Below are positions 4,047 through 57,301 of a stretch of DNA of 64,000 bases, piece by piece. The notes under the pieces were generated by a model. It worked only from the letters and a program-made list of their open reading frames with translations. It was not told the DNA's origin and did no database searches. The position numbers and the translations under genes were made by a program. The DNA comes from Clostridiaceae bacterium (lineage in GTDB: Bacteria > Bacillota > Clostridia > Saccharofermentanales > DTU023): positions 1 to 64,000 of the forward strand of contig DUOO01000015.1 of the NCBI GenBank assembly GCA_012838795.1. The letters are read 5' to 3'. Each line of letters opens with the position of its first letter. The first letter of the stretch is position 1.

Positions 4047-4074
4047 CTTTTTAAATATGAGAGGAGTAAAAAGC

Positions 4075-5871
4075 ATGTTATATCCTATTACAACCCAAAC
4101 AAGAACAGTACAATCATTGAACGGAGTCTGGAAATTCGCCCTGGAGAAAGAAGCTAACCCCAATGATGTCAGCACACCTTTAGAGACAAAAAAGAGTATG
4201 TCGGTTCCGGGTTCGTTTAATGATCAAGGCGTAACTCGCGATATCAGAATGCATGTAGGCTATGTATGGTATGAACGGGAATTTGTAGTTGCAGACAGTC
4301 TGTTAAATGAGAGAGTGGTTTTGCGCTTTGATGCAGCAACCCACGAAGCAGATGTTTATGTAAACGGACAATTTGTTGTTCATCACAAAGGCGGTTTTGT
4401 TCCTTTTGAAGCAGAAATTAATCAATTTATTAATTCAGGCAGAAACCGTGTAACTGTAAAATTGAGTAATATGATTGATTATACCAGCTTACCGGTCGGC
4501 AATTACTCCGAAACAACCGATACAGAAGGAAATGTTGTTCGTAAACTGTCGGAAAATTTCGACTTTTTCAATTATGCCGGTTTGAATCGTTATGTCAGAA
4601 TTTATACGACACCGAAAACATACATTTCGGATATAACAGTTACATATGATGTTGATCTGGAAAATTTAGCTGCTGATGTAAAAATTGCAACAGAAGCTGC
4701 AGGTGACTATGATGAAGTAAAAGTAACAATCTTAGATGAAGCTGATCAAGTTGTCGGTGAAGGTAACAGTGATTCTGCAATCAGTCTCAAAGAAATCAAC
4801 TTATGGCAACCGCTCAACGCCTATCTCTATAAAGCAAAAGTAGAGCTGATTAAAGATGGTGCCGTTGTTGATGTTTATGAGGAAGATTTCGGAATCAGAA
4901 CAGTTGAAGTAAAAGGCACACAATTCTTGATCAACGGAAAACCTTTCTATTTCAAAGGTGCCGGCAAACATGAAGACAGTTTTATCAACGGCCGTGGCAT
5001 CAATGAAGCTTACAATGTAGCGGATCTCAATATTATGCGTTGGATGGGTGCAAACTCTTTCCGTACTTCTCACTATCCGTATTCTGAAGAAATGATGCGT
5101 TTATGTGACCGTGAAGGTTTTGTTGTAATTGACGAATGTGCTGCTGTCGGTATGTTCGAAGGATTTAGTGTTGACTCGGCTTCCGGTATGGCTGCGAAAT
5201 CCACCTGGTCTGTATTAAATACAAAAGAAGCTCATGAACAAGGCATGTATGAATTAATCAAACGTGATAAGAATCATGCTTGTGTTGTGATGTGGTCGGT
5301 TATGAACGAACCTGATTCAGCAGGTCCGGGTTCTTATGAATACTTCAAATCTATTTTTGATTATTCCAGAAAATTAGATCCGCAAAACAGACCGTTTGCC
5401 TATGTCAATTTCCAAATTTGCGGTGTTGATAAAGATGTTTGTATGGAATTAAGTGATGTTATACTGCTAAATCGTTACTTCGGCTGGTACTGGGATACAG
5501 CGGACTTTGCATCGGCAGAGGCTCATTTGAGAGAAGACATGGCTGCCTGGCATGCAAAATTTCCTGACAAACCGATCATGTTCTGCGAATATGGTGCTGA
5601 TACGGTTGCCGGTTTACATGCTATTGCAGATATTCCGTTTACTGAAGATTATCAAGTAGAATACTACAAAATCAATTCTAAAGTATTTGATGAATGTGAT
5701 TACTTTGTCGGTGAACAATTATGGAACTTTGCCGACTTTGAAACCAAGACAGGTATCAACCGTGTTCAAGGTAACAAAAAAGGTGTCTTCACCCGCGGAC
5801 GTGATCCGAAAGCTGCAGCTCGCTGGTTAAGAGAGCGCTGGTTAAATATTCCGGATTTTGATTACAAATAG
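4075..5871 (+). CDS. uidA: Beta-glucuronidase (GH2)
   Basis: Glycoside hydrolase family 2 enzyme of 598 residues that releases D-glucuronate from beta-glucuronides in the cytoplasm (no signal peptide). The order is sugar-binding, immunoglobulin-like and TIM-barrel domains. The acid/base Glu412 is in MNEPD and the nucleophile Glu505 in CEYGAD. The NKK triplet at 567-569 gives the N-x-K pair that recognises the glucuronate carboxylate, which separates glucuronidases from beta-galactosidases. The segment matching the E. coli active-site loop is present and only slightly shorter. The start at 4075 has AGAGGAG upstream; the ATG at 4057 overlaps that site. It begins the glucuronide locus, in which the downstream uxaC, uxuB, uxuA, eda and kdgK products use the glucuronate. 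Confidence 0.96.
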   Translation: MLYPITTQTRTVQSLNGVWKFALEKEANPNDVSTPLETKKSMSVPGSFNDQGVTRDIRMHVGYVWYEREFVVADSLLNERVVLRFDAATHEADVYVNGQFVVHHKGGFVPFEAEINQFINSGRNRVTVKLSNMIDYTSLPVGNYSETTDTEGNVVRKLSENFDFFNYAGLNRYVRIYTTPKTYISDITVTYDVDLENLAADVKIATEAAGDYDEVKVTILDEADQVVGEGNSDSAISLKEINLWQPLNAYLYKAKVELIKDGAVVDVYEEDFGIRTVEVKGTQFLINGKPFYFKGAGKHEDSFINGRGINEAYNVADLNIMRWMGANSFRTSHYPYSEEMMRLCDREGFVVIDECAAVGMFEGFSVDSASGMAAKSTWSVLNTKEAHEQGMYELIKRDKNHACVVMWSVMNEPDSAGPGSYEYFKSIFDYSRKLDPQNRPFAYVNFQICGVDKDVCMELSDVILLNRYFGWYWDTADFASAEAHLREDMAAWHAKFPDKPIMFCEYGADTVAGLHAIADIPFTEDYQVEYYKINSKVFDECDYFVGEQLWNFADFETKTGINRVQGNKKGVFTRGRDPKAAARWLRERWLNIPDFDYK

Positions 5872-5925
5872 TTCCTCAAAAAATCTGTGTTTTATAGAGA
5901 AAACAGTGAATTAAAGATAATTTCA

Positions 5926-5961
5926 GATAGACAAGAAACTTTCAACAGTTTCTTGTCTATC
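5926..5961 (+). repeat. Perfect 15-bp inverted repeat between uidA and the permease gene
   Basis: GATAGACAAGAAACT (5926-5940) and its exact complement (5947-5961) flank a six-base loop. The sequence after it is ATAATTAAAA, with no T-run on either strand, so it is not a standard terminator. It lies 28 bases before the permease start and could be an mRNA processing or stability hairpin, or an operator. Confidence 0.85.
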
Positions 5962-5989
5962 ATAATTAAAACTAATTAAGGAGATATAT

Positions 5990-7321
5990 ATGACAGCAAC
6001 TCAAAAAGAGAAAAAGATGGGTGTATTTGATATCATTGGCGGTATCTTTAAGCCTATTCTCATCGTTATTATCGGAGCAGGCGTTCTGCAGGCGGTACGA
6101 GACGTTCTGGTTCAGGTCGGAGCTATTTCCAAAGTCAGCAGCAGCTATATTTTCTTGGATGGTTTAGGCAATGCGGTATTCTACTTTTTGCCTATTTTCC
6201 TGGCAATTGCCAGTGCGCAGGTATTTAAAGCTACTCCGTTTTTAGCTGCGGCAACGGCTGCTTTTTTACTATATCCAAATATTGTCAATATGTATGAATG
6301 GGCAAACAATGTAGGCTGGAATCTCACATTATTCGGTGCCATACCGATTACCTATGCCAAATATCCAAGCAGTGTTTTGCCGATCATTCTTATCGTTTAT
6401 GTTCAGTCCAAAATAGAGCCGTTATTAAAGAAGATTATCCCGGATTTATTGATGTCTATTTTATTTCCTGTATTGACTTTGTTTGTTACATGTATCAGCG
6501 GAATTATCATTTTGGGACCGATCGGAACTTGGATCGGTGACGCTTTGGCAGCCGGAATTACATGGTTAAATAATACGGTTTCATGGCTTGTACCGACCGT
6601 TGTCGGAGCTATGAGTCCATTCCTTGTTATTACCGGGTCACATTATTCATTGTTCCCGGTTGCTACACAGAACCTGGCTCAATTAGGCTATGATACAGTT
6701 TTAATACCGGGTATGATGGCTTCCAATATGGCACTTGCAGGTGTTTCGTTTGCGATTGCCATTCGCTCCAAACAAAAAATGTATAAGAGTTATAGTGCTT
6801 CTGCCGGAATAACTTCGCTTTTCGGTATTTCACAATCCTCCTTATATGGTAATGCGATTCCCCTGAAAAAACCTTTATATGCTTCGATTATCGGCGGCGG
6901 TATCGGCGGATTCTATGCCGGTATTACAGCGATTAAAGCAAGAAGCTTCGTTACGCCTGGACTGTTAGCTTTAGTCGGTTTCTCAAGTGACACAGGTAAT
7001 CTGATTAATTCGATATTAACCTGTGTAATTTCTTTTGCTGCGACATTTGCTTTAACGATTATTATGGGATTTGAAGAGCCTGATGCCAATACTGTGGCAG
7101 AACTTACCGGTCAGGCTATTTCCGAAGAGGAAAGCTCTGACATGCAAAAAGCTGCGGAAGAAGCAAGAGATACTGCCAGTGAAGCTGAAGTTGCTGCTGC
7201 TGAAATCGGATATGAAGCGGAAAAAGCAACCATCACCAGTGGCGCAACACAACTTGGACAAGATCTTGGTTTAACAGAAAAGGAAGAAAAGTCTGCAGAT
7301 AAACCGGATGCAAAAGAGTAG
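5990..7321 (+). CDS. PTS EIIC-like permease without EIIA or EIIB domains
   Basis: Polytopic membrane protein of 443 residues resembling the EIIC domain of the glucose/glucoside PTS family, with about ten hydrophobic segments up to residue 365. Family signatures include PFLAAATAAFLLYPN (83-97), GSHYSLFPV with the conserved His218, and SLYGNAIPLKKP (284-295). The usual GITEP motif is replaced by GISQS (279-283), so its glutamate is missing. There is no EIIB phosphocysteine domain or EIIA domain in this gene or nearby. The tail (about 370-443) is Ala/Glu-rich, probably cytoplasmic and helical. Lying directly after uidA, it probably imports glucuronides, perhaps without phosphorylation, since UidA acts on unphosphorylated substrate; this is inference. 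The ribosome site is AAGGAG. Confidence 0.8.
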   Translation: MTATQKEKKMGVFDIIGGIFKPILIVIIGAGVLQAVRDVLVQVGAISKVSSSYIFLDGLGNAVFYFLPIFLAIASAQVFKATPFLAAATAAFLLYPNIVNMYEWANNVGWNLTLFGAIPITYAKYPSSVLPIILIVYVQSKIEPLLKKIIPDLLMSILFPVLTLFVTCISGIIILGPIGTWIGDALAAGITWLNNTVSWLVPTVVGAMSPFLVITGSHYSLFPVATQNLAQLGYDTVLIPGMMASNMALAGVSFAIAIRSKQKMYKSYSASAGITSLFGISQSSLYGNAIPLKKPLYASIIGGGIGGFYAGITAIKARSFVTPGLLALVGFSSDTGNLINSILTCVISFAATFALTIIMGFEEPDANTVAELTGQAISEEESSDMQKAAEEARDTASEAEVAAAEIGYEAEKATITSGATQLGQDLGLTEKEEKSADKPDAKE

Positions 7322-7332
7322 TCAGGAGGGAA

Positions 7333-7836
7333 ATGATGAAAAAGATTTCAATTATATTGACCGTCATTTTACTTTTCAGTTTGGTTGGCTGCAGCAAAGC
7401 AGAAAAAAAGGAATTTACCTCACATATACCTCCGGAGACTGCTGAAGTTGGTCAGGATATTCAGATTGATGAAACTAATCATATTGAAATTACTGATATA
7501 AATATTAAAGAATTCGAAGATTCGAAATATGTTGTAATTACCTATGATTGGACTAATGATTCAAAAAGTGCGGCCACATCTGATAAGAGTTTTACAATAA
7601 CGGCTTCTCAGGACGATGTAGGACTGAAGCCCAATTTGAAAGTTGTTGAAGATAAGAAAAAATTGGTAACGCAGATTGAAGGAGGAGAGACTTTAAGCGG
7701 AATGGAGCAAGGTTTTGCTTTACGCAATGAAGAATCACCTGTTATATTATCTATCAAAGGAAAAATGTTCTCAGTATTTATTGATGGGAAACCTCAATCA
7801 GCTTATCCGGTCAAGGTTACAGTAGAGTTACCATAG
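7333..7836 (+). CDS. Predicted lipoprotein, DUF5067-like
   Basis: A 167-residue protein with a lipoprotein signal: MMKKISIIL, a hydrophobic core, and lipobox LVGC (acylated Cys20). The mature part has the pattern VVITYDWTNDSKSA..SFTITASQDD, a beta-rich extracellular fold like that in DUF5067 lipoproteins of Firmicutes; I place it there from memory of the pattern. It starts 11 bases after the permease with a strong AGGAGGG site (ATG at 7333 or 7336), so it is cotranscribed. It may bind or present glucuronides at the membrane, but nothing in the sequence proves this. Confidence 0.7.
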   Translation: MMKKISIILTVILLFSLVGCSKAEKKEFTSHIPPETAEVGQDIQIDETNHIEITDINIKEFEDSKYVVITYDWTNDSKSAATSDKSFTITASQDDVGLKPNLKVVEDKKKLVTQIEGGETLSGMEQGFALRNEESPVILSIKGKMFSVFIDGKPQSAYPVKVTVELP

Positions 7837-7900
7837 TAATATTTGAAAAACCACATAATAATTAATCATAAAATGTGAAATTGCTGAAAGGGATTATATT

Positions 7901-9517
7901 TTGAAATTAAATTTAGATTCAATCAAGAATAAAGAATTATGGGAAGATCAAGGTTTTGAACTTCCGGCTTATGATATTGAAGCAGTAAGAAATAAAACAA
8001 AATGTGAACCTGCTTGGTTACATTTCGGAGCAGGTAATATCTTCAGAATTTTTCCTGCAAGATTGCAAGATGAATTATTAGATAAAGGTGAAGCTGATAC
8101 CGGTATCATTTTTGCAGAAACTTTCAATCCGGACAAAATAGACTATATTTTTAAGCCTTATGATAATTTGAGCACCGCTGTAACCTTAAAGGCTGACGGA
8201 ACGCTTGGCTTGAGAGTAGTTGGATGTTTGGCCGAAGGAGTTAAAGTTGAACAAAATCGTGAAGGTTGGGCAAGAGCGGAAGAATTGTTCTCCCAACCTT
8301 CCTTACAGGTAGTAAGTTTTACCATTACGGAAAAGGGCTACAGTATCGTTGATCATACCGGAGATTATTCTGCTCAAGTAAAAGCGGAGATGCAGAATCC
8401 GGAATTGAAAACAACTAATCCGATGGGCATTGTCTGTCTCTTGCTGTACAAAAGATTTCAGGCAGGAAAATTGCCGCTTACCTTACTTAGTATGGATAAT
8501 GTTTCTCATAACGGGACTAAGTTGAGAGAATCTGTTTTAGCTTATGCAAAATCCTGGACTGAAAACGGTTTTTTGCAGCAAGAGTTCTATGACTATGTTG
8601 CAGATGAATCACTCATCAGTTTCCCGTGGTCAATGATTGATAAAATAACTCCGGTATCGAATGAATCAGTTGCGCGAATGCTGGAAGAGCGTGGCTATGA
8701 AGATGCAGAATGTCCTGTGGTGGAGGGCAGAAAAATGCCGCCCTCATTTGTTAATGCTGAAGAAACAGAATATTTGGTAATTGAAGATAATTTCACCAAC
8801 GGCAGACCTGATTGGGATAAAGCAGGTGTAATTTTTACTGATCGTGAAACGGTAGACAGAGTGGAAACCATGAAAGTAACGACCTGTCTTAATCCGTTGC
8901 ATACAGCATTAGCTGTTTTTGGCTGCTTATTGGGATTCGAGTTAATCAATCAGGAAATGTCGGATGAAGATCTGCTTAATTTGATTAAGGGTGTAGGTTA
9001 TGTTGAAGGTTTACCTGTCGTGGTAGATCCGGGCATTTTGGATCCGAAGACTTTCATTGATACGGTCATAGAGCAACGCTTACCTAATCCGTTTTTGCCG
9101 GATACTCCGCAAAGAATTGCTACAGATACTTCGCAAAAAATCCAAGTCCGATATGGTAAAACCATACAATCATATCTGGATCAAGATCCTGAAAAAATAA
9201 AAGACTTAATCTTTATTCCTGCTGTTTTAGCCGGTTGGTTAAGATATTTGCTTGCAATTGATGATTCAGGGAATGTAATGGAATTATCATCAGACCCTCT
9301 GTTAGAAACTTTGCAGGAACAGCTTAAAACCATAAAATTTATGGACAATGATAATGTTGCTGAAGTTCTGACACCGGTCTTAAGTAATAGCGAAATATTC
9401 GGGATAGACTTGGCAGAATACGGCTTGTCAGACAAAGTCATTCAATATTTTATTGCAATGAATAAGGAGATCGGAGCCGTTCGACGGTTTTTACAGTCTT
9501 TACCTCGCGCTGATTAA
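7901..9517 (+). CDS. uxuB: D-fructuronate reductase (mannitol dehydrogenase family)
   Basis: Long-chain polyol dehydrogenase of 538 residues that reduces D-fructuronate to D-mannonate with NADH. The N-terminal Rossmann segment contains WLHFGAGNIFRIF (residues 39-51). The C-terminal catalytic part has MKVTTCLNPLHTALAVFGCL at about residue 324-343, the site where the family carries its substrate and catalytic residues, and VVVDPGILDPK. Fructuronate reductase rather than mannitol dehydrogenase is chosen because uxuA, uxaC and kdgK adjoin it. Translation starts at TTG 7901, with GAAAGGGA upstream. Confidence 0.9.
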   Translation: MKLNLDSIKNKELWEDQGFELPAYDIEAVRNKTKCEPAWLHFGAGNIFRIFPARLQDELLDKGEADTGIIFAETFNPDKIDYIFKPYDNLSTAVTLKADGTLGLRVVGCLAEGVKVEQNREGWARAEELFSQPSLQVVSFTITEKGYSIVDHTGDYSAQVKAEMQNPELKTTNPMGIVCLLLYKRFQAGKLPLTLLSMDNVSHNGTKLRESVLAYAKSWTENGFLQQEFYDYVADESLISFPWSMIDKITPVSNESVARMLEERGYEDAECPVVEGRKMPPSFVNAEETEYLVIEDNFTNGRPDWDKAGVIFTDRETVDRVETMKVTTCLNPLHTALAVFGCLLGFELINQEMSDEDLLNLIKGVGYVEGLPVVVDPGILDPKTFIDTVIEQRLPNPFLPDTPQRIATDTSQKIQVRYGKTIQSYLDQDPEKIKDLIFIPAVLAGWLRYLLAIDDSGNVMELSSDPLLETLQEQLKTIKFMDNDNVAEVLTPVLSNSEIFGIDLAEYGLSDKVIQYFIAMNKEIGAVRRFLQSLPRAD

Positions 9518-9646
9518 TCCGAAATGGAATAGTCTTAAGCTTATGAAGCATATAATGAAGTTAAACTGAAGTTTACTTCAAATGTTAAATAATGAAAAAT
9601 ACTTAAAAATATAAAATTGATTTTAATTAAAAGGAGGATATGCTAA

Positions 9647-10723
9647 ATGAAAATGACTTTTCGGTGGTACGGAGAAGGAAACGATCCGATACCGCTAAAG
9701 TATATCAAACAAATTCCGAATTGTTCGGGTCTCATGGGAGTTTTAGATCAATATGCCGCAGGCGAAGTTTGGCCTGAAGATGTAATTGCCGATTATGTAA
9801 AACACGTAAATAATGCAGGTCTTGAAGTGGAAGTCATTGAATCGGTAAATGTTCATGAAGATATCAAATTAGGACTTCCGACCAGAGACCAATATATTGA
9901 AAATTACATTACTACAATCAGAAATTTAGCAAAACACGGTATCAAAGTAATTGTGTATAATTTCATGCCGGTTTTTGATTGGTTGCGTACTGATTTAGCG
10001 AGAGATATTCCGGAAGACGGTTCAAATTCTTTATTTTATGATGAACAGGAACTTTTGGGCATGACACCCCAAGAAATAGTTAAGCAAACTACTGAAAATG
10101 CAGGCTTTACTTTGCCTGGCTGGGAACCTGAACGCTTAGCTGATTTGGATCGTGTTATGAAATTATACGAAGATGTAAGTCCGGAACAGTTGTTAGAGAA
10201 TTATAAATATTTCTTGCAAGCTATTATACCGGTATGTGAAGAAGTCGGTATCAGAATGGGAGTGCATCCTGATGATCCGGCTTGGCCTATTTTCGGTTTG
10301 CCGCGGATTGTTCATAATAAAGAACAATTAAAAGCTATTTTGAATTTAGTGGACAGTCCTGCTAACAGTCTCTGTTTCTGCACCGGTTCACTAGGCTCAA
10401 ATCCGGATAATGACATTCCTGCCATGCTGCGTTATTTCAGTGAAAAAGATCGGGTAGCTTGCGTGCATCTCAGAAACGTTAAATATTTGGGTGAACGTTG
10501 TTTCCGTGAAGCCAGTCATCTCTCAGCTGACGGGGATCTCGATATGTATGAAATAGTAAGAGCTTTATACGAAACCGGATTTGATGGTTATGCCCGGCCT
10601 GATCACGGCAGAATGATTTGGGATGAAAAAGGACGTGCGGGCTACGGACTGTATGATCGGGCACTTGGCATTACTTATCTGAACGGTTTATGGGAAGCCT
10701 TGGAAAAAGGAGATAAGATTTAA
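9647..10723 (+). CDS. uxuA: Mannonate dehydratase
   Basis: Xylose-isomerase-like TIM barrel of 358 residues that dehydrates D-mannonate to 2-keto-3-deoxy-D-gluconate. The start [24 protein letters not shown] is the typical UxuA N terminus. Other family blocks are [34 protein letters not shown] (metal-binding His), [19 protein letters not shown], and [13 protein letters not shown] near the end. An AAGGAGG site precedes the ATG. Its stop overlaps the ATG of the aldolase gene by one base (TAATG), indicating translational coupling. Confidence 0.97.
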
Positions 10724-11352
10724 TGTATCAATTATTAGAGGGACATGGAGTTGTCCCGGTAATTAAATTCAGTGATGTCAGTGAAGCTCTACCTTTAGCA
10801 GATGCCTTATCTGCAGGTGGCATAAATATTATGGAGATTACATTTCGTAGTGATGCTGCCTATGATGCTATCAAAAGAGTGGCTGCAGAAAAACCGGAGA
10901 TTCTGGTAGGTGCCGGAACAGTTGTCAATTTAGCGCAACTTGAACAGGCGATTGATGCGGGTGCAAAATTTGTCGTTAGTCCGGGTTTTGATCCGGAAAT
11001 CGTCGAGGCCGGTTTAAAAGCAGGGGTAATCATGTTGCCGGGTGTCATTACACCAAGTGAAATAATGGCTGCGATGAAGTTAGGGTTAACTGTCTTAAAA
11101 TATTTCCCCGCATCTGTTTTCGGCGGACTCAAAGCTATTAAGACCTATGCAAGCGTTTTTGGCGGTGTGAAATTTATGCCGACAGGCGGAGTTTCTGCAG
11201 CTAATTTAGCGGAATTTTTAGCTGTACCCAATATCCAGGCTTGTGGCGGTTCGTGGATGTGTTCGGCTGATTTGATCAAAGAACAAAAATGGGATGAAAT
11301 TACCAAGTTGTCTGCAGAAGCTACAATTATTTACAAAACAGTTAGAGGCTAA
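10723..11352 (+). CDS. eda: KDPG/KHG aldolase
   Basis: Class I aldolase of 209 residues that cleaves 2-keto-3-deoxy-6-phosphogluconate to pyruvate and glyceraldehyde 3-phosphate. Visible motifs are MEITFRSDAA (catalytic Glu), VGAGTV, the Schiff-base lysine in TVLKYFPAS, and the phosphate-binding MPTGGVS. It overlaps uxuA by one base and precedes the KDG kinase, matching the pathway order in reverse. Confidence 0.95.
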   Translation: MYQLLEGHGVVPVIKFSDVSEALPLADALSAGGINIMEITFRSDAAYDAIKRVAAEKPEILVGAGTVVNLAQLEQAIDAGAKFVVSPGFDPEIVEAGLKAGVIMLPGVITPSEIMAAMKLGLTVLKYFPASVFGGLKAIKTYASVFGGVKFMPTGGVSAANLAEFLAVPNIQACGGSWMCSADLIKEQKWDEITKLSAEATIIYKTVRG

Positions 11353-11382
11353 AAATCTTTTAGCTTGAAAGAGAGGAATTCA

Positions 11383-12471
11383 ATGGATTTAAAAGTTAAA
11401 GATCGTGATTCTTGCAAGTATGATCAGTTTTCTTTAGGTGAAGTTATGTTAAGGCTTGATCCGGGTGATGGCAGAATACGTACTGCACGTCATTTCACTG
11501 CCTGGGAAGGAGGCGGAGAGTATAATGTAGCAAGAGGTTTGCGTCGCTGTTTCGGAATGCGTACCGGTATAGTTACAGCTCTGGCTAAAAATGACATCGG
11601 TTATTTAATTGAAGACTTTATACTGCAAGGCGGATTAGATACTTCATATATTCAATGGATGGATTTTGATGGCATCGGCAGAAAATCAAGAAACGGAATT
11701 AATTTTACTGAACGTGGTTACGGTGTACGTGGTGCACTGGGTGTATCCGATAGGGCAAATACTGCGGTAAGTCAAATTAAACCGGGTATGATCGATTGGG
11801 AAAAATTGTTTGGTGAAGAAGGTGTACGCTGGTTCCATACAGGCGGAATCTATGCCGCTTTATCTGAAGATGCTGCTGCAGTTGTCATAGAGGCAGTAAC
11901 TACCGCACATAAATACGGTACAATAACCAGTTATGACTTAAACTACAGACCGTCCTTATGGAATGCAATCGGCGGTTTGGAACGTTGTCAGGCAGTCAAC
12001 AAAGAAATTGCGTCACACATTGATGTTATGATCGGTAATGAGGAAGATTTTCATGCCTGTCTCGGTTTGGAGATTGAAGGTGATCTGAAAGAACTCAATT
12101 TGGATAGTTATCGCAAAATGTTGAAAAATGCATCTGAAGCATATCCCAACTTTAAAGTTATCGGCAACAGTTTACGTACTGTACATACGGCAACCGATAA
12201 TGATTGGTCGGCATTCTGCTATGCAGACGGCGAAATTTATAAAGCCAGACAATATGATCATCTGGAAATTTTTGATCGTGTCGGTGGCGGCGACAGTTTT
12301 GCTTCCGGTTTAATCTACGGTTTAATGACGACCGGAGATCCTGAAATTGCTGTTAATTACGGTGCGGCTCACGGTGCACTTGCTATGACGACGCCGGGTG
12401 ATACAACCATGGCACGTAAAGAAGAAGTTGAAGCCTTAATGGGCGGAGGCAGCGCGAGAGTAGTCAGATAG
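11383..12471 (+). CDS. kdgK: 2-keto-3-deoxygluconate kinase (PfkB family)
   Basis: Ribokinase-fold sugar kinase of 362 residues. The N-terminal FSLGEVMLRLDPGDGRI and GGGEYNVARGLRRCFG blocks and the C-terminal signature DRVGGGDSFASGLIYG (catalytic Asp in GGGDS) are clear. It should phosphorylate 2-keto-3-deoxygluconate, the product of UxuA and, once phosphorylated, the substrate of Eda. The ATG at 11383 has GAGAGGA upstream; a TTG at 11365 without a ribosome site is less likely. It ends the first part of the operon, before a terminator-like hairpin. Confidence 0.9.
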   Translation: MDLKVKDRDSCKYDQFSLGEVMLRLDPGDGRIRTARHFTAWEGGGEYNVARGLRRCFGMRTGIVTALAKNDIGYLIEDFILQGGLDTSYIQWMDFDGIGRKSRNGINFTERGYGVRGALGVSDRANTAVSQIKPGMIDWEKLFGEEGVRWFHTGGIYAALSEDAAAVVIEAVTTAHKYGTITSYDLNYRPSLWNAIGGLERCQAVNKEIASHIDVMIGNEEDFHACLGLEIEGDLKELNLDSYRKMLKNASEAYPNFKVIGNSLRTVHTATDNDWSAFCYADGEIYKARQYDHLEIFDRVGGGDSFASGLIYGLMTTGDPEIAVNYGAAHGALAMTTPGDTTMARKEEVEALMGGGSARVVR

Positions 12472-12592: not shown

Positions 12593-12674
12593 TATCAAAT
12601 CAATAAGATACTGTGCGGTAAAACGATCTGTTTAAAAAATTTATATCGTGTTTGATAATTTAAATGGAGATACT

Positions 12675-14084
12675 ATGAAAAAGTTTTTGGACGAAGATTT
12701 TATGTTGAATTCGCATTCTGCAACTGTTCTTTATCATGAATATGCAGAAAAAATGCCGATAATAGATTTTCATAATCATTTAGAGCCACGAGAAATATAC
12801 GAAGATAAACAGTTTTCTGATATTTCTGAGTTGTGGCTGGGAGGCGATCATTATAAGTGGCGTTTAATGCGTGCTTTTGGTATTCCCGAAGAGCAAGTAA
12901 CCGGAAATGCAGCACCATATGATAAGTTTCTGGCTTATGCCAGGATGATTCCTTATACAATCGGCAATCCGGTTTTCCATTGGACACATTTGGAACTGGC
13001 AAGATATTTCGGTATTACTGATATTCTTTCGGAAAAAACTGCAGCTAGGATTTATGCCGAATGTAATGAAATGCTTAAATCTGCGGAATTTTCTGTAAGA
13101 AATCTTTTGTCACGTATGAATGTTAAAGCATTATGTACCACGGATGATCCGACTTCTGATTTGAAATATCATCTGGCAATGAGAGATGAAGGATTTTCAA
13201 TTAAAGTCTTGCCGACATTCAGACCGGAACGGGCAATGGCAATTGAAAAATCGGATTTTGTCGATTATATTTCAAAATTAGCCACAAGTGCAGGGATGAC
13301 AAAAATCGAAACTATTACCGATTTAGAAAATGCTTTGCTTAAACGGATAGAATTTTTTGCTGCTGTCGGTTGTAGAATCAGTGATCACAGTCTGGATGCC
13401 GAATTATTTTCGGAAGCTTCTCCTGAGAAGGCAAATCTGGTCTTGCAAAAAGCTTTGCGCGGTGAAAGTCTGAGCTCAAATGAAAGAAGAAGTTATAAAG
13501 GATATTTACTATCTTTCTTGGGTAAAGCATATTACGATCACGGGTTAATTATGCAGTTGCATATCGGTGCGATCCGCAATAATTCTCAGCGGATGTATGA
13601 ACTGTTGGGAGCTGATAAAGGTTATGATTCAATGGACGATTTCAATTATGCGGCTCAATTATCGGGTTTATTGAATGAGCTCGATTTAGCAGACAAAATG
13701 CCTTACTCTATCATGTATTGTCTAAACGGTAAAGAAAACGATATGCTGGCTACGATGATTGCAAATTTTCAAGGTGGCGGTGTTAAGGGGAAATTACAAT
13801 TAGGCTCTGCCTGGTGGTTTTTGGATCATAAAAGAGGTATGTTCAATCAAATGGAAGCATTTGCCAATAATGGTTTGATCGCTACTTTTGCCGGTATGGT
13901 AACCGATTCAAGATCTTTTTTATCCTTTCCGAGACATGAATATTTTCGCAGAACACTCTGCGATTTTTTAGGCGGCTTGATTGATCGCGGTGAATATCCT
14001 GCCGATTACGAATTTGTCGGCAGCATTGTTCAAGACATTTGTTATAACAATATAAATAAGATGATGTTTAAGCCGAAAAAATAA
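12675..14084 (+). CDS. uxaC: Glucuronate isomerase
   Basis: Amidohydrolase-superfamily uronate isomerase of 469 residues, matching the family length of about 470. It converts D-glucuronate to D-fructuronate, the first step after UidA. Metal-binding IIDFHNHLEPREIY is at residues 25-38. Further blocks are HWTHLELARYFGI, CTTDDPTSDL, LQLHIGAIRNN (bases 13553-13583), LGSAWWFLDHKRGM and TDSRSFLSFPRHEYFRRTLC near the end. The ATG at 12675 has TGGAGA upstream; a GTG at 12648 without such a site would add nine residues. Confidence 0.96.
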   Translation: MKKFLDEDFMLNSHSATVLYHEYAEKMPIIDFHNHLEPREIYEDKQFSDISELWLGGDHYKWRLMRAFGIPEEQVTGNAAPYDKFLAYARMIPYTIGNPVFHWTHLELARYFGITDILSEKTAARIYAECNEMLKSAEFSVRNLLSRMNVKALCTTDDPTSDLKYHLAMRDEGFSIKVLPTFRPERAMAIEKSDFVDYISKLATSAGMTKIETITDLENALLKRIEFFAAVGCRISDHSLDAELFSEASPEKANLVLQKALRGESLSSNERRSYKGYLLSFLGKAYYDHGLIMQLHIGAIRNNSQRMYELLGADKGYDSMDDFNYAAQLSGLLNELDLADKMPYSIMYCLNGKENDMLATMIANFQGGGVKGKLQLGSAWWFLDHKRGMFNQMEAFANNGLIATFAGMVTDSRSFLSFPRHEYFRRTLCDFLGGLIDRGEYPADYEFVGSIVQDICYNNINKMMFKPKK

Positions 14085-42848: not shown

Positions 42849-43895
42849 ATGACTTTGTTTGAAGTTACTCAATATGATAGAGAAATTTATGAAAGAAAAA
42901 TCAAAAATTATTTACCGGAAAACATAATAGATATTCACACTCATGTGTACCAAAAATATGATTCTAAGATTCTTGGCGATCAATCCAGAACGGTGAGTTG
43001 GCCAAATAAAGTTGCACAAGAGAATCCGGTTGAAGATATTATTAAAACATATGAATTAATGTTTCCCGATAAAAATGTAGTTCCGTTAATGTTTATGGAT
43101 GCAAAAAAAGCTGATCAGGCATTTCGTGATCAAGGAAATGCTTATTGCAGGCATGTTTCGGAAGAGACCGGATTTCCTGCACTATATTTCTCTCATCCAA
43201 TAGAAGAACCTGAAGAATTGGAACAAAAAGTAATTTCCGGAGGTTTCTTAGGTCTTAAATCTTATCTCAATCTTGCTCCTGATTATTTACCGGTCAATGA
43301 AATACGAGTATTTGATTTTTTCCCGAAAAGTCAATTAGCTGTTGCGGATAAAAATAAATGGATCATAATGCTGCACATTCCTCGTGACGGACGTTTGGGT
43401 GATGAAGTAAATTTGGCTCAGATTCAAGAAATTGCGGCAGAATTTCCAAATTTAAAGTTAATCATCGCTCATGTCGGCAGAGCATATTGTCCTGAGAACA
43501 TCGGGAACGGTATGAAAGTGTTGAGTGAACTTCCGAATGTGTATGTAGATTTCTGTGCTAACTGCAATCAATATGTTTTTGAAGAACTAATTAAAGCCGT
43601 TGGACCAAAGAGAATTCTGTTTGGCAGTGACCTTCCGATATTGAGAATGAGAACGAGAAGAATATGTGAAAACGGTACATACATTAATTTAGTTCCGCCG
43701 GGATTATACGGAGATGAATCAGTTGATCCGCATTTAAGAGAAGTCAGTGAACAAGAAGCAGAAAAAATTACATTTTTCTTATATGAAGAGATCATTGCAT
43801 TCCTGGAGGCATCACGCCAAGTTGGATTAAATAATGAGGATATAGAGCGAATTTTCTATGGTAATGCCAAAGAATTGCTTGATAGTTTTAAGTGA
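42849..43895 (+). CDS. Amidohydrolase-family (amidohydrolase 2) protein
   Basis: Protein of 348 residues with a metal-dependent TIM barrel. IIDIHTHVYQK (26-36) is the HxH metal site. LKSYLNLAP, WIIMLHIPRDGRLGD (His), LKLIIAHVGRAYCPEN (His) and RILFGSDLPILRMR (catalytic Asp) follow in the usual order. Relatives are hydrolases, decarboxylases and lactonases. Being first in a cluster with a sugar kinase and isomerase, it may open a sugar lactone or remove a side group; this is inference. TTAGGAGA precedes the ATG. Confidence 0.88.
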   Translation: MTLFEVTQYDREIYERKIKNYLPENIIDIHTHVYQKYDSKILGDQSRTVSWPNKVAQENPVEDIIKTYELMFPDKNVVPLMFMDAKKADQAFRDQGNAYCRHVSEETGFPALYFSHPIEEPEELEQKVISGGFLGLKSYLNLAPDYLPVNEIRVFDFFPKSQLAVADKNKWIIMLHIPRDGRLGDEVNLAQIQEIAAEFPNLKLIIAHVGRAYCPENIGNGMKVLSELPNVYVDFCANCNQYVFEELIKAVGPKRILFGSDLPILRMRTRRICENGTYINLVPPGLYGDESVDPHLREVSEQEAEKITFFLYEEIIAFLEASRQVGLNNEDIERIFYGNAKELLDSFK

Positions 43896-43938
43896 AAGAT
43901 TAATTTTAGTTAAAAATAAATGTTTTTGGGAATGAGAT

Positions 43939-45429
43939 ATGTACGGTTTGTTAGGAATTGATGTTGGTACCAGCGCTGTTAAAAGCTCTTTGTTTACAAC
44001 AAAAGGGGTCCTTTTAGGGACAGAAAGTTTTGAATATCCCACAATATATAATGATTATGGGCTGGTCGAGCAGAATCCTGAAGATTGGTGGAAAGGTATA
44101 GTAGTTACTGTTAACAAGTTGTTAGAAGACAATAAGATTAATGTTGTGGCATTAGCAATGTCTACCCAGGGAGGCACTTTAGTACCGGTAGATTCTGATA
44201 ACAATCCTACGCACCCGGCGATTGTATGGAGTGATGAAAGATGCAAAACGGCCAGATCAAAGATTTTAGAGAAATTTACAGAAGATGAAATATACGAAAT
44301 AACAGGTTGGAGGTTAAGTTCAGGCTTAAATTTACTGCAAATTTTAGAATTGAAAATAAATAATCGAAGTGTATTTGATAAAACAGTGTCATTTTTGTCC
44401 GTACCGGATTATTTGGCAGTTAAGTTAACAGGTAAATGTGTCATAGACTTCTCCAATGCTGGCATCAATCAACTCTATGATGTCAGAGATAATAAATGGA
44501 GCAAAGTTTTACTTGATTTTGCGGGAATCAGTGAAAATCAATTAGCTCAGTTGTCTGACTCCGGAATTGTTATCGGTAAAATAAAAAGAGAAGTAATCAA
44601 AGAGCTTGGCATATCTTCAGATGCGGTCTTAGTTACCGGTGGTCATGATCAATACTGTGCCGCATTGGGTGCTGGTTTGACCAATCCCGGTGATGTTTTG
44701 ATCGGATCGGGGACAGCGTGGACAGTAAATCTGCCGACGAAACTTCCCAAGGTTGATGTCAATTCAGGGAATACATTCAGTAGACACGTCATACCGGGAT
44801 TGTACGGTACGCTGATATCTTTAAGTTTTGGCGGTCAATCATTAGAGTGGTTCAGAACTTTATTATTAAATAATAGAAAAAGTGACTTCTCTCTTTCGTA
44901 TAAAGTTATTGATGAAAACGTCGGGAAAAGAAATATTGATCGGCAGTTGATTTTTATACCGTTTTTCAATGGTATTTCTCATAAGATTAACTGTCCGGAA
45001 CTAAGCGCCGGATTCTTAGGAATTAAATCAGGACATGATGCCTACGATTTAATACGAGCGATTATGGAAAGTGTTGCAATGTATGCAGCCTATCTGATTA
45101 CTATACTTTCAGATAACGGTATAGTAAACAAGGTAGTTTTGACTGGCGGAGCAGGGAATAGTGATGTCTGGGTAAAGATGGTGGCTGATACTCTTAATCT
45201 TCCTGTCATTGTACCAAATAATAAAAATGCCTCTTCCAGAGGAGCTGCGATGTTGGCAGGAATCGGAGCCGGCATATTTACCAATCACCAAGAAGCAATA
45301 GATGTGTTTTTAAATGAAACAAATGTAAAAGAGAAGATCATTTATCCTGGTAAGAATCATCAATTAATGTTTAAAAAGCAGAAACTATTTATTGAGATGT
45401 TGGAACATCTAACGATATTTTACAAGTAG
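43939..45429 (+). CDS. FGGY-family carbohydrate kinase
   Basis: Kinase of 496 residues, actin-like fold. GIDVGTSAVKSSLF (6-19) is the phosphate-1 loop, and EQNPEDWWKGIV, MSTQGGTLVPVD and AIVWSDERC match xylulokinase-type members. TGGHDQYCAALGAG contains the catalytic Asp, and VVLTGGAGNSDVWVKMVADTLNLPV is the adenosine motif. Substrate (ketose or polyol) cannot be read from sequence. It follows the amidohydrolase gene after 43 bases. Confidence 0.92.
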   Translation: MYGLLGIDVGTSAVKSSLFTTKGVLLGTESFEYPTIYNDYGLVEQNPEDWWKGIVVTVNKLLEDNKINVVALAMSTQGGTLVPVDSDNNPTHPAIVWSDERCKTARSKILEKFTEDEIYEITGWRLSSGLNLLQILELKINNRSVFDKTVSFLSVPDYLAVKLTGKCVIDFSNAGINQLYDVRDNKWSKVLLDFAGISENQLAQLSDSGIVIGKIKREVIKELGISSDAVLVTGGHDQYCAALGAGLTNPGDVLIGSGTAWTVNLPTKLPKVDVNSGNTFSRHVIPGLYGTLISLSFGGQSLEWFRTLLLNNRKSDFSLSYKVIDENVGKRNIDRQLIFIPFFNGISHKINCPELSAGFLGIKSGHDAYDLIRAIMESVAMYAAYLITILSDNGIVNKVVLTGGAGNSDVWVKMVADTLNLPVIVPNNKNASSRGAAMLAGIGAGIFTNHQEAIDVFLNETNVKEKIIYPGKNHQLMFKKQKLFIEMLEHLTIFYK

Positions 45430-45470
45430 TTTTAATGTAATAGTATAACAAGAGGACGGAGAAGAGATAC

Positions 45471-46172
45471 ATGAAAAAATTACCTGCATCACCATTTTTT
45501 GAAACAAGTGTCAAAAATTATATCTATGGACAAGACGCTATCGACTATGCATTAGCGGTTGAAGAAGCAGCAAACAAATATGATGTAGATGCTTTGTTCA
45601 TTTCACCTTTAACGGAAATTCGAACAATAGCTGAAAAAACCGAACGTTTAATTATCATAGCCGCCTATATGGATCCGATCAGACCCGGCAGAGGTATCGC
45701 GGATATTTTGCCTGAAGCAATCAAAGCGGCGGGTGCCCACGGGGTATTACTCAATCATATTGAGAAGCCGATGTCATTAAAACAAATTGAAGCAACTATC
45801 ATCAGGGCCAATGAACTGGATTTAATATCATTTGCCTGCGCTGATTCAATTGCTGAAGCTAGGGCGATTGCTCAGTTCAATCCGGATATTATTAATCCGG
45901 AACCGTCTGAGTTGATTGGCTCAGGTCAAGCAAGTGACATGACATACGTTATTAAAACATTAGAGGAGGTAAAGAAAGTATCACCGGATATTTTAGTCGA
46001 ACAAGCAGCAGGTATTACTAAAAGCAGTCAAATATATGATTTCATCATGGCGGGTAATGACGGAGCCGGTTCAGCATCCGGTATCTTAAAATCACCGGAT
46101 CCATATGCGTTGCTTGATGAAATGATTTATTACGTAAGTTTAGCAAAAAAAGAATTAAACAAAGTCAAATAA
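45471..46172 (+). CDS. Archaeal-type triosephosphate isomerase homologue
   Basis: TIM-barrel protein of 233 residues that lines up with the short archaeal class of triosephosphate isomerase. SVKNYIYGQ has the N-terminal Lys. AAYMDPIRPGRGIADILPEAIKAAGAHGVLLNHIEKP carries the catalytic His in LLNH. The catalytic Glu is in NPEPSELIGSG, and the phosphate-binding part is EQAAGITKSSQ and GNDGAGSASGI. A glycolytic TIM of the bacterial type would be 250 residues and in the gap-pgk operon, so this is probably a specialised isomerase for a tri- or tetrulose phosphate produced by the cluster; that is inference. Confidence 0.8.
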   Translation: MKKLPASPFFETSVKNYIYGQDAIDYALAVEEAANKYDVDALFISPLTEIRTIAEKTERLIIIAAYMDPIRPGRGIADILPEAIKAAGAHGVLLNHIEKPMSLKQIEATIIRANELDLISFACADSIAEARAIAQFNPDIINPEPSELIGSGQASDMTYVIKTLEEVKKVSPDILVEQAAGITKSSQIYDFIMAGNDGAGSASGILKSPDPYALLDEMIYYVSLAKKELNKVK

Positions 46173-46185
46173 GCGGAGAAGATAA

Positions 46186-46686
46186 ATGAAAATATTTAAT
46201 CATATTATTAATTGCAGTTCAACCGGAAAACGTCCCACTTTTCATAATCTGTCGGAAGAGATCCGTGAGTTTGTGAAAAATACAGGAACAGAGAATGGAC
46301 AATGTTTAGTCTATTCACGCCATACTACTTGTGCAATTCTCATAGACGAAGAATCTTTTGATAAATCATATTCAGGTTTAACTTTTCTCCAGCAAGACTT
46401 AGTGGATGTTTTTGAGAAAACAATTCCTACTTGCAGGAAGGAAGGTCAATATATGCATCCGGGCCCCGAACTGACTATTTTTGCTGCCGAACATGGAGAA
46501 GATAAAGAAGGAACCTTAAATACCGATGCACATCTTCGTTCTTCAATTGTCGGCCGCAGTGAAGTAATTCCGATTATTGACGGGAAATTAATATTAGGTG
46601 ATTTCGGAAATGTGTATTTCATTGATTTTGATCAGACACGAGCCCGAGATCGAGAAGTGATTGTCCAAGTTATTTCATTTGAATGA
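46186..46686 (+). CDS. YjbQ-family protein (UPF0047)
   Basis: Protein of 166 residues. HTTCAILIDEES (47-58), NTDAHLRSSIVGRSEVIPIIDGKLILGDFGNVYFIDFDQTRARDREVIVQV are the two family signatures, with conserved His and Asp residues clustered as in a metal site. Family members complement a thiamine-phosphate synthase defect weakly, and their true role is unclear. It is longer than the usual 130-140 residues by an insert around 60-100 (YSGLTFLQQDLVDVFEKT). It is placed between an isomerase and a NagB-like gene, 13 bases after the former. Confidence 0.88.
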   Translation: MKIFNHIINCSSTGKRPTFHNLSEEIREFVKNTGTENGQCLVYSRHTTCAILIDEESFDKSYSGLTFLQQDLVDVFEKTIPTCRKEGQYMHPGPELTIFAAEHGEDKEGTLNTDAHLRSSIVGRSEVIPIIDGKLILGDFGNVYFIDFDQTRARDREVIVQVISFE

Positions 46687-46723
46687 AATGACTGTATATA
46701 AAGAAATCAGAGAAGGAGTTTTT

Positions 46724-47680
46724 ATGAATAAAGAATTTAATTTTAGTCCTGCAACATGGTTGCCGAAATTTGAGCCGGAAGTTCTTGATTATGTTCGTAA
46801 TATTAAGCGGGAAGACATGGAATATACCAATGAAAACGGTTACAGTGTCAAAGTTGTAATGGATCCTGTTTTACATTTGGTAATGGATATGTTTCACAGA
46901 ATTTATTTGAGTGATGTTGAGGATAAATCATTTACGATGATATGCCCCAATTCATGGGCCGGTTCTTATTCAGCAATTGCAAATATGATAAATAAATATA
47001 ATGTAAATTGTCGGAATGTACATGCTTTTGCAATGGATGAATGGGCAGATGAAGACGGCAATGTAGCTCCGTTAACTTATGGTGCAGGTTTAGGCTATTC
47101 GTTCAGAAAACATTTTTATGAACAGATAAGAGAAGATTTACGTCCGCCGGTCGAACAATGGCATGTTTTCACAAATGAAAATAAGGGTGACGATGTTTAT
47201 TCCGAATTAATCGAAGAAGCTGGTGATGGCGGAGCGGATGTAGTATATTCAGCTACCGGGTGGCCGGGACATACAGCATTTATAGATCCGGGAACAGAGG
47301 CATTTAAAGCGGATAGTCTCGAAGAATACATAAAGATAGGCTCGCGTTTGGTCGAACAACATCCGCTGACAATTGCTGAAAATTCTTTATTCAATTCAGC
47401 CGGCGCATCAGGTGATGTATGGGGAGTACCGCCGAAAGCAGTAACAATCGGACCAAGGGATATTGTGAATGCACGTGAAAGTGTGGAGGTACATTCTTTT
47501 GTAAATCCGGGTGGTGATTCTTGGCAAAGAATGGCCTCCAGATTGCAACTTTACGGACCGATTACCATGGAATGTCCGGCAACGATCTTACGTTTAGGTA
47601 AAGGTACTTGTTATGTAAGTGAAGCTATTGCCAGACCGTTCAGTGCCTGGACAGCAGGTTTGGAAAACAAGGATTTATAA
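46724..47680 (+). CDS. NagB-like sugar isomerase/deaminase superfamily protein
   Basis: Protein of 318 residues related to glucosamine-6-phosphate deaminase. AFAMDEWADEDGN matches the MDE motif, and GWPGHTAFIDPGTEAF matches the GHIAFNEPG motif; both lie in the Rossmann-like sugar-phosphate isomerase fold. The catalytic Asp of the GEDGHI motif is replaced (GWPGHT), and the Glu in NEP is Asp, so ordinary GlcN6P deamination is doubtful. At 318 residues it is longer than NagB (about 240-265). The ATG at 46724 has GAAGGAG upstream; the open frame runs from 46661 into the yjbQ gene. No nagA gene accompanies it. Confidence 0.75.
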   Translation: MNKEFNFSPATWLPKFEPEVLDYVRNIKREDMEYTNENGYSVKVVMDPVLHLVMDMFHRIYLSDVEDKSFTMICPNSWAGSYSAIANMINKYNVNCRNVHAFAMDEWADEDGNVAPLTYGAGLGYSFRKHFYEQIREDLRPPVEQWHVFTNENKGDDVYSELIEEAGDGGADVVYSATGWPGHTAFIDPGTEAFKADSLEEYIKIGSRLVEQHPLTIAENSLFNSAGASGDVWGVPPKAVTIGPRDIVNARESVEVHSFVNPGGDSWQRMASRLQLYGPITMECPATILRLGKGTCYVSEAIARPFSAWTAGLENKDL

Positions 47681-47717
47681 TTATTATTTTCAGGTTACGC
47701 GATAGCTAACCGGAATT

Positions 47718-47746
47718 TCTGCTATTTTCATTTATGGAATAGCAGA
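47718..47746 (+). repeat. 9-bp hairpin after the NagB-like gene
   Basis: TCTGCTATT (47718-47726) and AATAGCAGA (47738-47746) flank an 11-base loop and are followed by TATTTAC, only mildly T-rich. It could be a weak terminator dividing the cluster before the cyclase gene, which is 185 bases beyond the previous stop. Confidence 0.5.
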
Positions 47747-47865
47747 TATTTACATATTGCAGTAAAAAATTCCTGAATGAACAGAAGTAAACTGAAGAAA
47801 AGTGGTTTACCATATCGATGAGCAAACTGCTATAAGTTTAAACAATCAAAAGAGAGGTGATAAAA

Positions 47866-48540
47866 ATGATATTGGATATCACGGGAGTTATTGAGGAAGG
47901 TATGTGGAATTATGACTATCCATATCCTGAAATTAATATCAAACCTTTACCAAAAGTAGATTGGGTTGACGGAGAAGTTTTCAGTGAAATTTTTGAAGGA
48001 TTACATTCTCAAACCGGTACTTATTTAGAAACACCTGCTCATTATTTTGGAAATAACAATAGTTACTTATTAATTGATGTACCCGTAGAAAAATTAGTTT
48101 CGATTGATTGTACTGTCTTACAGGTAGCAGATTATAATATTGAAGATTTAAACAACCGGCCGGCAATCACTTTGGAAGATTTGTTAACCTGTGAAGGTGC
48201 GGAAGAAATTGAAGAAGGCAATGCTATTGTTGTAGGTACAGGCTGGGGAAAATACTGGAAACATAAAGATTACTTAAATTTATCTCCATTTTTTAAGAGA
48301 GAAGCAATAGAATGGATTATAAGCAAAAAACCTTTGCTTTTAGGTTCTGATCTTGCCAGGTGGGAAAACCTGGAAAAGCCGGAAGGCTTTTTTCCTGCTT
48401 TCTATAAGGCGGATATTTTAATGGCGGGGCCATTTATCAATATTGAAAAAATAGAAAAAACCAAGTGTAAGCTTACTATTTTACCGTTAAAAGTAGTCAG
48501 AACCAGTTGTGCGCCTTGCAGAGCAATAGTTGAGTATTGA
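47866..48540 (+). CDS. Cyclase-family protein (PF04199-like) with altered metal motif
   Basis: Protein of 224 residues of the kynurenine formamidase-like family. LDITGVIEEGMWNYDYPYPEI is the typical N terminus. The usual metal-binding motif H-x-G-T-H-x-D-x-P-x-H reads Q-T-G-T-Y-L-E-T-P-A-H: two of the histidines and the Asp differ. VVGTGWGKYW and KKPLLLGSDLARWEN match the downstream blocks. Metal-bound hydrolase activity is therefore uncertain. ATG 47866 has GAGAGGTGA upstream. It precedes the regulator gene and is probably part of the cluster. Confidence 0.75.
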   Translation: MILDITGVIEEGMWNYDYPYPEINIKPLPKVDWVDGEVFSEIFEGLHSQTGTYLETPAHYFGNNNSYLLIDVPVEKLVSIDCTVLQVADYNIEDLNNRPAITLEDLLTCEGAEEIEEGNAIVVGTGWGKYWKHKDYLNLSPFFKREAIEWIISKKPLLLGSDLARWENLEKPEGFFPAFYKADILMAGPFINIEKIEKTKCKLTILPLKVVRTSCAPCRAIVEY

Positions 48541-48632
48541 TATAATTATTAACTCAATGGCGCTCAATGGCAGAAAATCAATCTAATTCAGTTGTATGAT
48601 CATTAATTTGGTTTTTCCGGGAGAAGAGTAAA

Positions 48633-49409
48633 GTGAAAAGAAATTTAAAAAACATAATAATTGATTATTTACATCAGTACGGAAAACTTAAGAATAATGA
48701 TGCAGTTGAATTATTAGATGTTTCCTTATCAACTGTACGTAGATTAATGATTGAGCTTGAAGAGCAAAATTTAGTTACCAGAATCCATGGTGGAGTTCAG
48801 TTGAATGGAGATGTGAGCAGATACCTTTTTAGTGAGAAGGAATTAAAAAATGCAAATCAGAAAATTGCGATTGCTGATTTTGCTGCAAATAATTTGATTG
48901 ATGATCAAGATGTAATATATTTGGACAGCGGTACTACTATTAAGCAATTGGCATTAGCAATTTCGAGAAATTTGTTGTCGGATAATTTAAAAGAACTCAC
49001 CGTCATTACTAATTCTTTAGCTAACATGGAAATACTAAATGACTTTTGCGAAGTTATTTTAATTGGCGGTATATATAGGGAAAAAAGAAAGGATTTTGCC
49101 GGTTTTGCAACAGAACGTTTTCTGGAGTGTTTTAACTATCAAAAAGCTTTTTTCGGTGCGGACGGTTTTGATATTTCAACCGGGTATTCCGGCAATGATC
49201 CTTTAACTGCATCGATTAATGAGACTGTAAAAGCCCGTACGAGTTGTAAACATGTTTTGATAGATAGCAGTAAGTTTAATACAATAGGATTTGTATCTTA
49301 TGCATCTGTAGCTGATATAGATATTTTGATCACAGATGAAAATATCACTGCGGAAAAAAGAAGTCAGTTAGAAGAGAATAACATTAAATATTATGCAGTT
49401 GAGTTGTAA
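48633..49409 (+). CDS. DeoR/GlpR-family transcriptional regulator
   Basis: Protein of 258 residues. The N-terminal winged helix reads IIDYLHQYGKLKNNDAVELLDVSLSTVRRLMIELEEQNLVTRIHGGVQL (residues 9-57), the typical DeoR signature. The C-terminal sugar-phosphate-binding domain has IYLDSGTT, TVITNSLANMEIL, LIGGIYREKRKDFAG, KAFFGADGFD and HVLIDSSKF. DeoR proteins repress adjacent sugar genes and release in the presence of phosphorylated sugars. It likely controls 42849-48540. The start is GTG 48633. Confidence 0.93.
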   Translation: MKRNLKNIIIDYLHQYGKLKNNDAVELLDVSLSTVRRLMIELEEQNLVTRIHGGVQLNGDVSRYLFSEKELKNANQKIAIADFAANNLIDDQDVIYLDSGTTIKQLALAISRNLLSDNLKELTVITNSLANMEILNDFCEVILIGGIYREKRKDFAGFATERFLECFNYQKAFFGADGFDISTGYSGNDPLTASINETVKARTSCKHVLIDSSKFNTIGFVSYASVADIDILITDENITAEKRSQLEENNIKYYAVEL

Positions 49410-57291: not shown

Positions 57292-57301
57292 GAGGAGTTA
57301 C

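Follow-up and report, generated by a model that had tools for sequence, protein, structure and literature searches.

The PTS is the classic example of transport coupled to chemical modification. In structures of PtsG, residue E298 coordinates the 6-OH of glucose, according to passages of PMC11393339. Passages of a paper on a V. cholerae EIIC describe the Glu of the GITEP motif as almost universal and as essential for transport and phosphorylation, while the motif roles in its own protein are inferred there from homologues (PMC12900739). That sugar can also be carried unphosphorylated is stated for TreB and maltose in an excerpt of PMC3938415, and uncoupled PtsG mutants are known here from a title cited in PMC12900739. 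As to glucuronides, an excerpt of a review places a PTS transporter in the gus operon of R. gnavus (PMC10112845). The locus analysed here contains a lone EIIC gene next to a beta-glucuronidase gene.

The permease gene and its operon

The window, that is, the whole stretch of 64,000 nucleotides that was analysed, is contig C55 of a draft genome of 2.09 Mb (63 contigs, 96.3% complete). On the + strand it carries an operon with the order uidA, EIIC, lipoprotein, uxuB-like, uxuA, eda, kdgK-like and uxaC, the coordinates of which are collected in Table 1. According to the list of open reading frames and Pfam, there is no second transporter gene within the operon, and no transcription regulator gene adjoins it within the window. 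Scans of the window for promoter-like and terminator-like signals gave numbers close to chance (42 versus 32.6 expected and 12 versus 7.7, respectively).

Table 1. Features of the glucuronide operon and of the permease gene in the window.
Feature	Position	Strand	Basis or remark
uidA, GH2 beta-glucuronidase	4057..5871	+	immediately upstream of permease gene
Perfect 14-bp inverted repeat, 8-nt loop	5926..5961	+	between uidA and permease gene
Lone EIIC permease, 443 aa, ATG start, GISQS replacing GITEP	5990..7321	+	
His218 codon, conserved His, aligned with E. coli PtsG H211	6641..6643	+	alignment
GISQS motif, residues 279-283, Gln282 aligned with PtsG E298	6824..6838	+	alignment
C-terminal helical extension of permease	7085..7318	+	
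DUF5067 lipoprotein, lipobox ending in Cys20	7333..7836	+	Pfam, predicted model
Mannitol-dehydrogenase family oxidoreductase, probably fructuronate reductase UxuB	7901..9517	+	Pfam, NCBIfam
uxuA, mannonate dehydratase	9647..10723	+	Pfam, NCBIfam
eda, KDPG/KHG aldolase	10723..11352	+	Pfam, NCBIfam
PfkB-family kinase, probably KDG kinase	11365..12471	+	model scores below cut-off
uxaC, glucuronate isomerase	12648..14084	+	Pfam, NCBIfam

The enzyme encoded upstream of the permease scores 831.8 with the NCBIfam beta-glucuronidase model (cut-off 544) and contains NKKG at residues 573-576, an instance of the NxK motif that marks glucuronate recognition. Judged by eye, it has no export signal or signal peptide, and its gene probably starts at 4075 (MLYP..., as in the relatives). 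The UxuB-like protein reaches 135.5 bits with the fructuronate reductase model, which is below the cut-off.

For the permease itself, the only Pfam domain is PTS_EIIC (PF02378; residues 18-302, 75.5 bits versus a cut-off of 30.7); Pfam gives neither an MFS_2 domain of the UidB type nor an output domain. The best NCBIfam model is that of the beta-glucoside IIABC proteins (TIGR01995; 323.2 bits, below the cut-off of 614.7), matched over the EIIC part alone (model positions 100-466 of 618). The other top models, those of sucrose PTS proteins, are likewise matched in the EIIC part only and below cut-off. E. coli BglF is 29% identical to the permease over 378 aligned positions. A search of the PDB sequences with phmmer and profiles returned no EIIC, but structure comparison did find it. 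The AlphaFold2 model (mean pLDDT 84.9, from a 46-row alignment) has an intact EIIC fold and superimposes on the crystal structure of the MalT EIIC (5iws; Z 19.1, rmsd 4.9, 347 residues aligned) and on an integrative model with a PTS EIIBC chain (9a6a; Z 40.6, rmsd 2.5, 351 aligned). The EIIC fold and the conserved His noted in the sequence-only reading were borne out.

The C-terminal extension is in the AlphaFold2 model mostly one long helix. It is missing in those relatives that are linked to GH3 genes (see below) and shortened in one locus linked to uidA (L064). An EIIB or EIIA hidden in this part was considered and rejected, since it has no Pfam domain, is predicted as a long helix and is shortened in L064.

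The lipoprotein gene follows the permease gene directly in all 12 of the related loci, among the matches listed, that reach past the permease. Its product is predicted as a beta-sandwich like other Gram-positive lipoproteins (pLDDT 88.0; Z 12.0, rmsd 2.4 and 118 aligned residues against 3cfu), and two relatives that were scanned fall below the DUF5067 cut-off. We infer that it is probably an extracytoplasmic accessory of the permease. A strong hairpin between uidA and the permease gene is present in five of the eight loci that were folded, namely the window and four of seven relatives (L058, L059, L063 and L064). Although the stem is of different sequence in the window type and in the L063/L064 type, the hairpin itself is maintained. 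This hints at a conserved function in the RNA, such as processing or partial termination.

Some other parts of the window deserve mention in their own right. Beyond the operon, on its downstream side, is a set of ABC transporter genes that includes one for a periplasmic binding protein; from its gene order the set would be of the branched-chain amino acid type. At 42849-49409 there is a catabolic-looking cluster with an FGGY kinase, a 339-aa protein without Pfam match and, by eye, amidohydrolase-like, BtpA-like, cyclase-like and DeoR-type regulator genes. Two adjoining genes at 56650-59173 have, by eye, PII-like and DUF1538-type membrane features, and are possibly a transporter with its regulator.

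Related permeases and their neighbours

In the class, 36 of 391 genomes match the permease at E <= 1e-30. Besides the window's own genome, three of them (G402, G086 and G290) have matches that are at least 59% identical, with frames of 393-467 aa, while the next-best matches are at most 42% identical and in most cases have longer frames. A family search gave four further carriers among 38 genomes (G037, G033, G025 and G028). When contigs were scanned, 13 loci of the window type (L058-L069 and L075) were found among the best 80 of 173 matches; the remaining 67 are set apart by a motif of EIIB or EIIA, or by a long stretch at the N-terminus. There are hence, with the window, at least 14 related loci among the matches listed. 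Those near-relatives that bear names come from MAGs under the labels Clostridiaceae and other Bacillota; the carriers are draft genomes or MAGs and represent few independent lineages. A spread beyond the class was considered and rejected. In the phylum, matches to query A1 at E <= 1e-100 occur in four of 398 genomes, one of them the window's own. Of the three others, G591 has an IIBC with GITEP, and the remaining two probably have fused proteins, as their open frames are 657 and 671 aa long.

The replacement of GITEP by GISQS, to which the sequence-only reading had drawn attention, is not peculiar to the window. Exactly the same change is kept in all 13 related loci in which the motif can be read, among the matches listed (L075 ends before it), and this is far beyond chance. 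The comparison with other EIICs was made in an alignment that takes 12 members of the clade, out of 14, and 34 loci from outside it, hand-picked for spread from the 67 available; it omits L075 and also L059, the start of which is unclear, though its GISQS is readable. In this alignment, residue 282 is Gln in 12/12 clade rows and Glu in 34/34 others, and residue 283 is Ser in 12/12 and Pro in 34/34, respectively. The conserved His (HP1b, His218) is found in all 12 clade rows and in 25 of the other 34. The clade is also marked by Arg37 and Gln34, where the others mostly have Leu (28/34) and Lys (27/34).

In the tree, the 12 clade members form one group with support 100/100, placed among the EIIB/EIIA-fused beta-glucoside PTS proteins (IIBC/IIABC). 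The uidA-linked members make up a branch of their own (98/94), and a further branch, drawn open, holds the GH3-linked ones (100/99). The clade is under purifying selection. Four pairwise dN/dS values are 0.059, 0.065, 0.085 and 0.149, which means that the permease is not decaying; a pseudogene or decaying PTS fragment was rejected on this ground and because the motif is fixed in all readable members. Between the window and L058 the value is 0.034 for the core and 0.174 for the C-terminal extension, the latter thus evolving faster.

A separate case is a lone EIIC on a distant branch (L053 in G195, 8580-9716), which has GITQPS, apparently by an independent Glu-to-Gln change, and no sugar genes evident nearby.

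The proposal that lone EIIC genes should be sought beside uidA in other genomes proved fruitful. The pairing recurs: uidA adjoins the permease gene in 11 of the 14 loci among the matches listed (the window, L058-L065, L067 and L075; that of L065 is a fragment, divergent and at the end of its contig). In the other three (L066, L068 and L069, the neighbourhoods of the first two being read as L052 and L051) the adjoining gene is a GH3 gene. The finding is therefore wider than the first reading, in that this permease type also adjoins GH3 genes and always has the lipoprotein gene next to it. Within the uidA branch, uidA is the most constant partner; several members have no uxu genes nearby.

As a control, 13 other uidA genomes of the class were opened. 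Eight of them have an MFS_2 (UidB-type) permease gene within the fetched stretch (L168 and L170-L176), which means that in the window the EIIC occupies the place where a permease is expected. Three (L177, L178 and L179) are without an evident permease, one (L169) has a PfoR-like EIIC (24.8 bits, below cut-off), and in one (L180) a complete IIBC and IIA surround uidA. The last case, in G280, is a single run IIBC-uidA-IIA at 5034-8787, in which the enzyme keeps NKKG and the IIBC keeps GVTEP; this IIBC groups elsewhere in the tree than the window clade. A PTS can thus accompany a glucuronidase. The original argument that a phosphorylating PTS would be a poor fit beside UidA is accordingly weakened, both by L180 and, according to the excerpted review (PMC10112845), by the gus operon of R. 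gnavus.

Some neighbours of these control loci can be recorded here. The L180 run adjoins, by eye, a GH1-like gene. In L169 (G258, 8865-12242) the PfoR-like EIIC lies beside barrel-type (His_biosynth-like), by eye GntR-like, and uidA genes, and the window's own genome has a protein that resembles this EIIC (L003, 892-2496; both in the range 534-548 aa).

PTS partners and the mode of transport

The absence of EIIA and EIIB partners, first noticed in the vicinity of the gene, holds also for the genome as a whole. The permease has the EIIC domain alone, and neither a glucose-type EIIB (PF00367) nor EIIA_1 (PF00358) has any match in the 96.3% complete draft. Enzyme I is encoded in this genome, as are three HPr. 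The remaining EIICs are a mannitol-type IICB with a PF02302 EIIB and a PTS_EIIA_2 gene nearby, which we take to be MtlA, and the PfoR-like protein, presumably PfoR. Supply of EIIB in trans from the mannitol-type IICB was considered and rejected, since PF02302 is another EIIB family.

Of the eight carrier genomes that were searched, all drafts, seven have no PF00367 or PF00358 above cut-off; matches below it (EIIB in G290 and G402, EIIA in G402 and two in G028) were treated as chance. The exception is G033, with one EIIB and one EIIA_1. Here the EIIB is part of an IICB of 562 aa, which includes an EIIC of its own and GISEP; the adjoining EIIA gene encodes 187 aa. A dedicated pair elsewhere, which would have spoken for phosphorylation through this permease, was thus not found above cut-off in seven carriers, and in the eighth it belongs to a complete IICB. 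Partner genes could sit in gaps of the drafts, but the same gap across seven genomes is unlikely.

The recurrence of uidA and the absence of EIIB and EIIA support the prediction that an EIIC was converted to non-PTS glucuronide transport. Our preferred reading, with a probability of ca 0.7, is that the permease is a beta-glucoside-type EIIC outside the PTS, which imports intact beta-glucuronides without phosphorylation for UidA. The basis is the anatomy of the protein, the clade, the conservation of the Glu-to-Gln change, the absence of partners in most carriers, the operon context and the selection; from these we infer transport, substrate, lack of phosphorylation and energy coupling. The EIIB and EIIA domains once fused to the ancestral EIIC would have been lost, and Gln would have replaced the Glu of GITEP at the sugar site. 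An elevator-type carrier would then move the intact, unphosphorylated beta-glucuronide across the membrane, where cytosolic UidA would cleave it, and the glucuronic acid would pass through UxaC, the UxuB-like reductase, UxuA, KDG kinase and Eda. The drive could be either a downhill flux upheld by hydrolysis, which would be the likeliest cycle, or ion coupling; facilitated and ion-coupled transport look alike at the level of sequence.

The role of residue 282 needs some consideration. Glucuronides carry a carboxylate at C6, and therefore the usual phosphate acceptor hydroxyl is missing. An acid at this position would be expected to repel the carboxylate. This accounts well for the uidA branch, but it does not cover all members, because the GH3-linked ones share the Gln and may transport something other than a uronide. 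For them a different cause of the Gln has to be assumed, for instance that phosphotransfer was simply lost. Since changes of the GITEP Glu in the PTS lose transport, according to passages of PMC12900739, the protein could also be dead or have taken on another role; the purifying selection argues against the former.

It is quite unlikely, in our estimate, that the protein is still a PTS permease with EIIB and EIIA in trans, phosphorylating another hydroxyl or an aglycone sugar. Enzyme I, HPr, the retained His, the IIBC-uidA-IIA run of G280 and the EIIB and EIIA of G033 are all compatible with such a scenario. It is, however, opposed by the seven carriers without partners, by the G033 pair having its own GISEP-containing IICB and by the different EIIB family of the mannitol-type protein. 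In addition, the Glu that passages of PMC12900739 report as essential for phosphorylation is missing in every readable member among the matches listed.

Two further scenarios concern the cargo and the function. The permease might import free glucuronate or a GlcA-containing disaccharide and not glucuronides in general, for which speak the free glucuronate pathway genes of the operon, the general knowledge that bgl-type EIICs take disaccharides and glycosides, and the GH3-linked relatives, which suggest more than one kind of glycoside. But with a UidA that by eye has no signal peptide the conjugate itself must enter, and in the uidA branch it is uidA, and not the uxu genes, that is kept most constantly, which makes this option unlikely. 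That the protein has become a sensor or regulator after losing its PTS role, and is no transporter, is very improbable. A regulatory role has been ascribed to PfoR-like EIIC proteins, and the operon lacks an adjoining regulator gene within the window, but the permease holds the place that MFS_2 permeases have near other uidA genes, has no output domain and retains the EIIC fold in the predicted model.

A broader version of the preferred reading can be put forward tentatively, although we find it more doubtful than probable. The whole GISQS lineage, which belongs to the glucose superfamily of EIICs, would be outside the PTS and form a non-phosphorylating glycoside importer, a three-gene module with a cytosolic glycosidase and with the surface lipoprotein as obligate outer partner; the Glu-to-Gln change would remove the acid linked to phosphotransfer and, in the glucuronide branch, suit the C6 carboxylate. 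We know of no PTS permease with an obligate outer lipoprotein partner.

Finally, the own genome has two MFS_1-type permeases elsewhere, one of them beside a GH2-like gene, and these could carry glucuronides. The latter pair (L182 on contig C13, 4155-7404), in which a GH2-like glycosidase gene comes after the permease gene, is a possible second glycoside-uptake pair.

Comparison with known systems

If the preferred reading is correct, an EIIC can act as a stand-alone carrier, in a fixed natural lineage that has dropped the phosphorylation machinery and the sugar-site Glu and is nevertheless preserved by strong selection. The role of the GITEP Glu in sugar binding versus phosphotransfer would then be directly testable through one residue in a natural protein. 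There would also be a further kind of glucuronide importer beside the UidB-type permeases and the PTS-linked systems, and most annotation would count the bacteria that have it among the PTS users.

With the beta-glucoside PTS Enzymes II (BglF, TIGR01995), its nearest relatives in the tree, the permease shares the EIIC family and the conserved His. These enzymes, however, have EIIB/EIIA and GITEP, whereas the window permease has GISQS and no such domains, and its partner is a beta-glucuronidase or GH3 enzyme and not a 6-phospho-glycosidase. UidB/GusB (GPH family, MFS_2) has the same presumed job, the import of glucuronides for a cytosolic UidA, but is of an unrelated family, as the window permease matches PTS_EIIC only.

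The linkage of a PTS-type permease gene with a GH2 glucuronidase gene is not new, since in R. gnavus the genes for a PTS transporter and a glucuronidase lie side by side, as far as the excerpted review goes (PMC10112845), and L180 has the same arrangement; L180 differs in its full IIBC and IIA, its GVTEP and its position in the tree. In the open-licence PMC literature we found no account of a glucuronide transporter that is EIIC-only or of the EIIC type, nor of the present lineage. The novelty lies in an EIIC lineage that is fixed, has no partners and lacks the Glu. The passage of sugar through an EIIC without phosphorylation, as proposed for the window permease, has its parallels in TreB with maltose and in the uncoupled PtsG mutants, in so far as these are covered by the excerpt of PMC3938415 and the title cited in PMC12900739. 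TreB and PtsG keep their EIIB and are uncoupled in a side reaction or through mutations made in the laboratory, whereas for the window permease a natural, fixed state is proposed.
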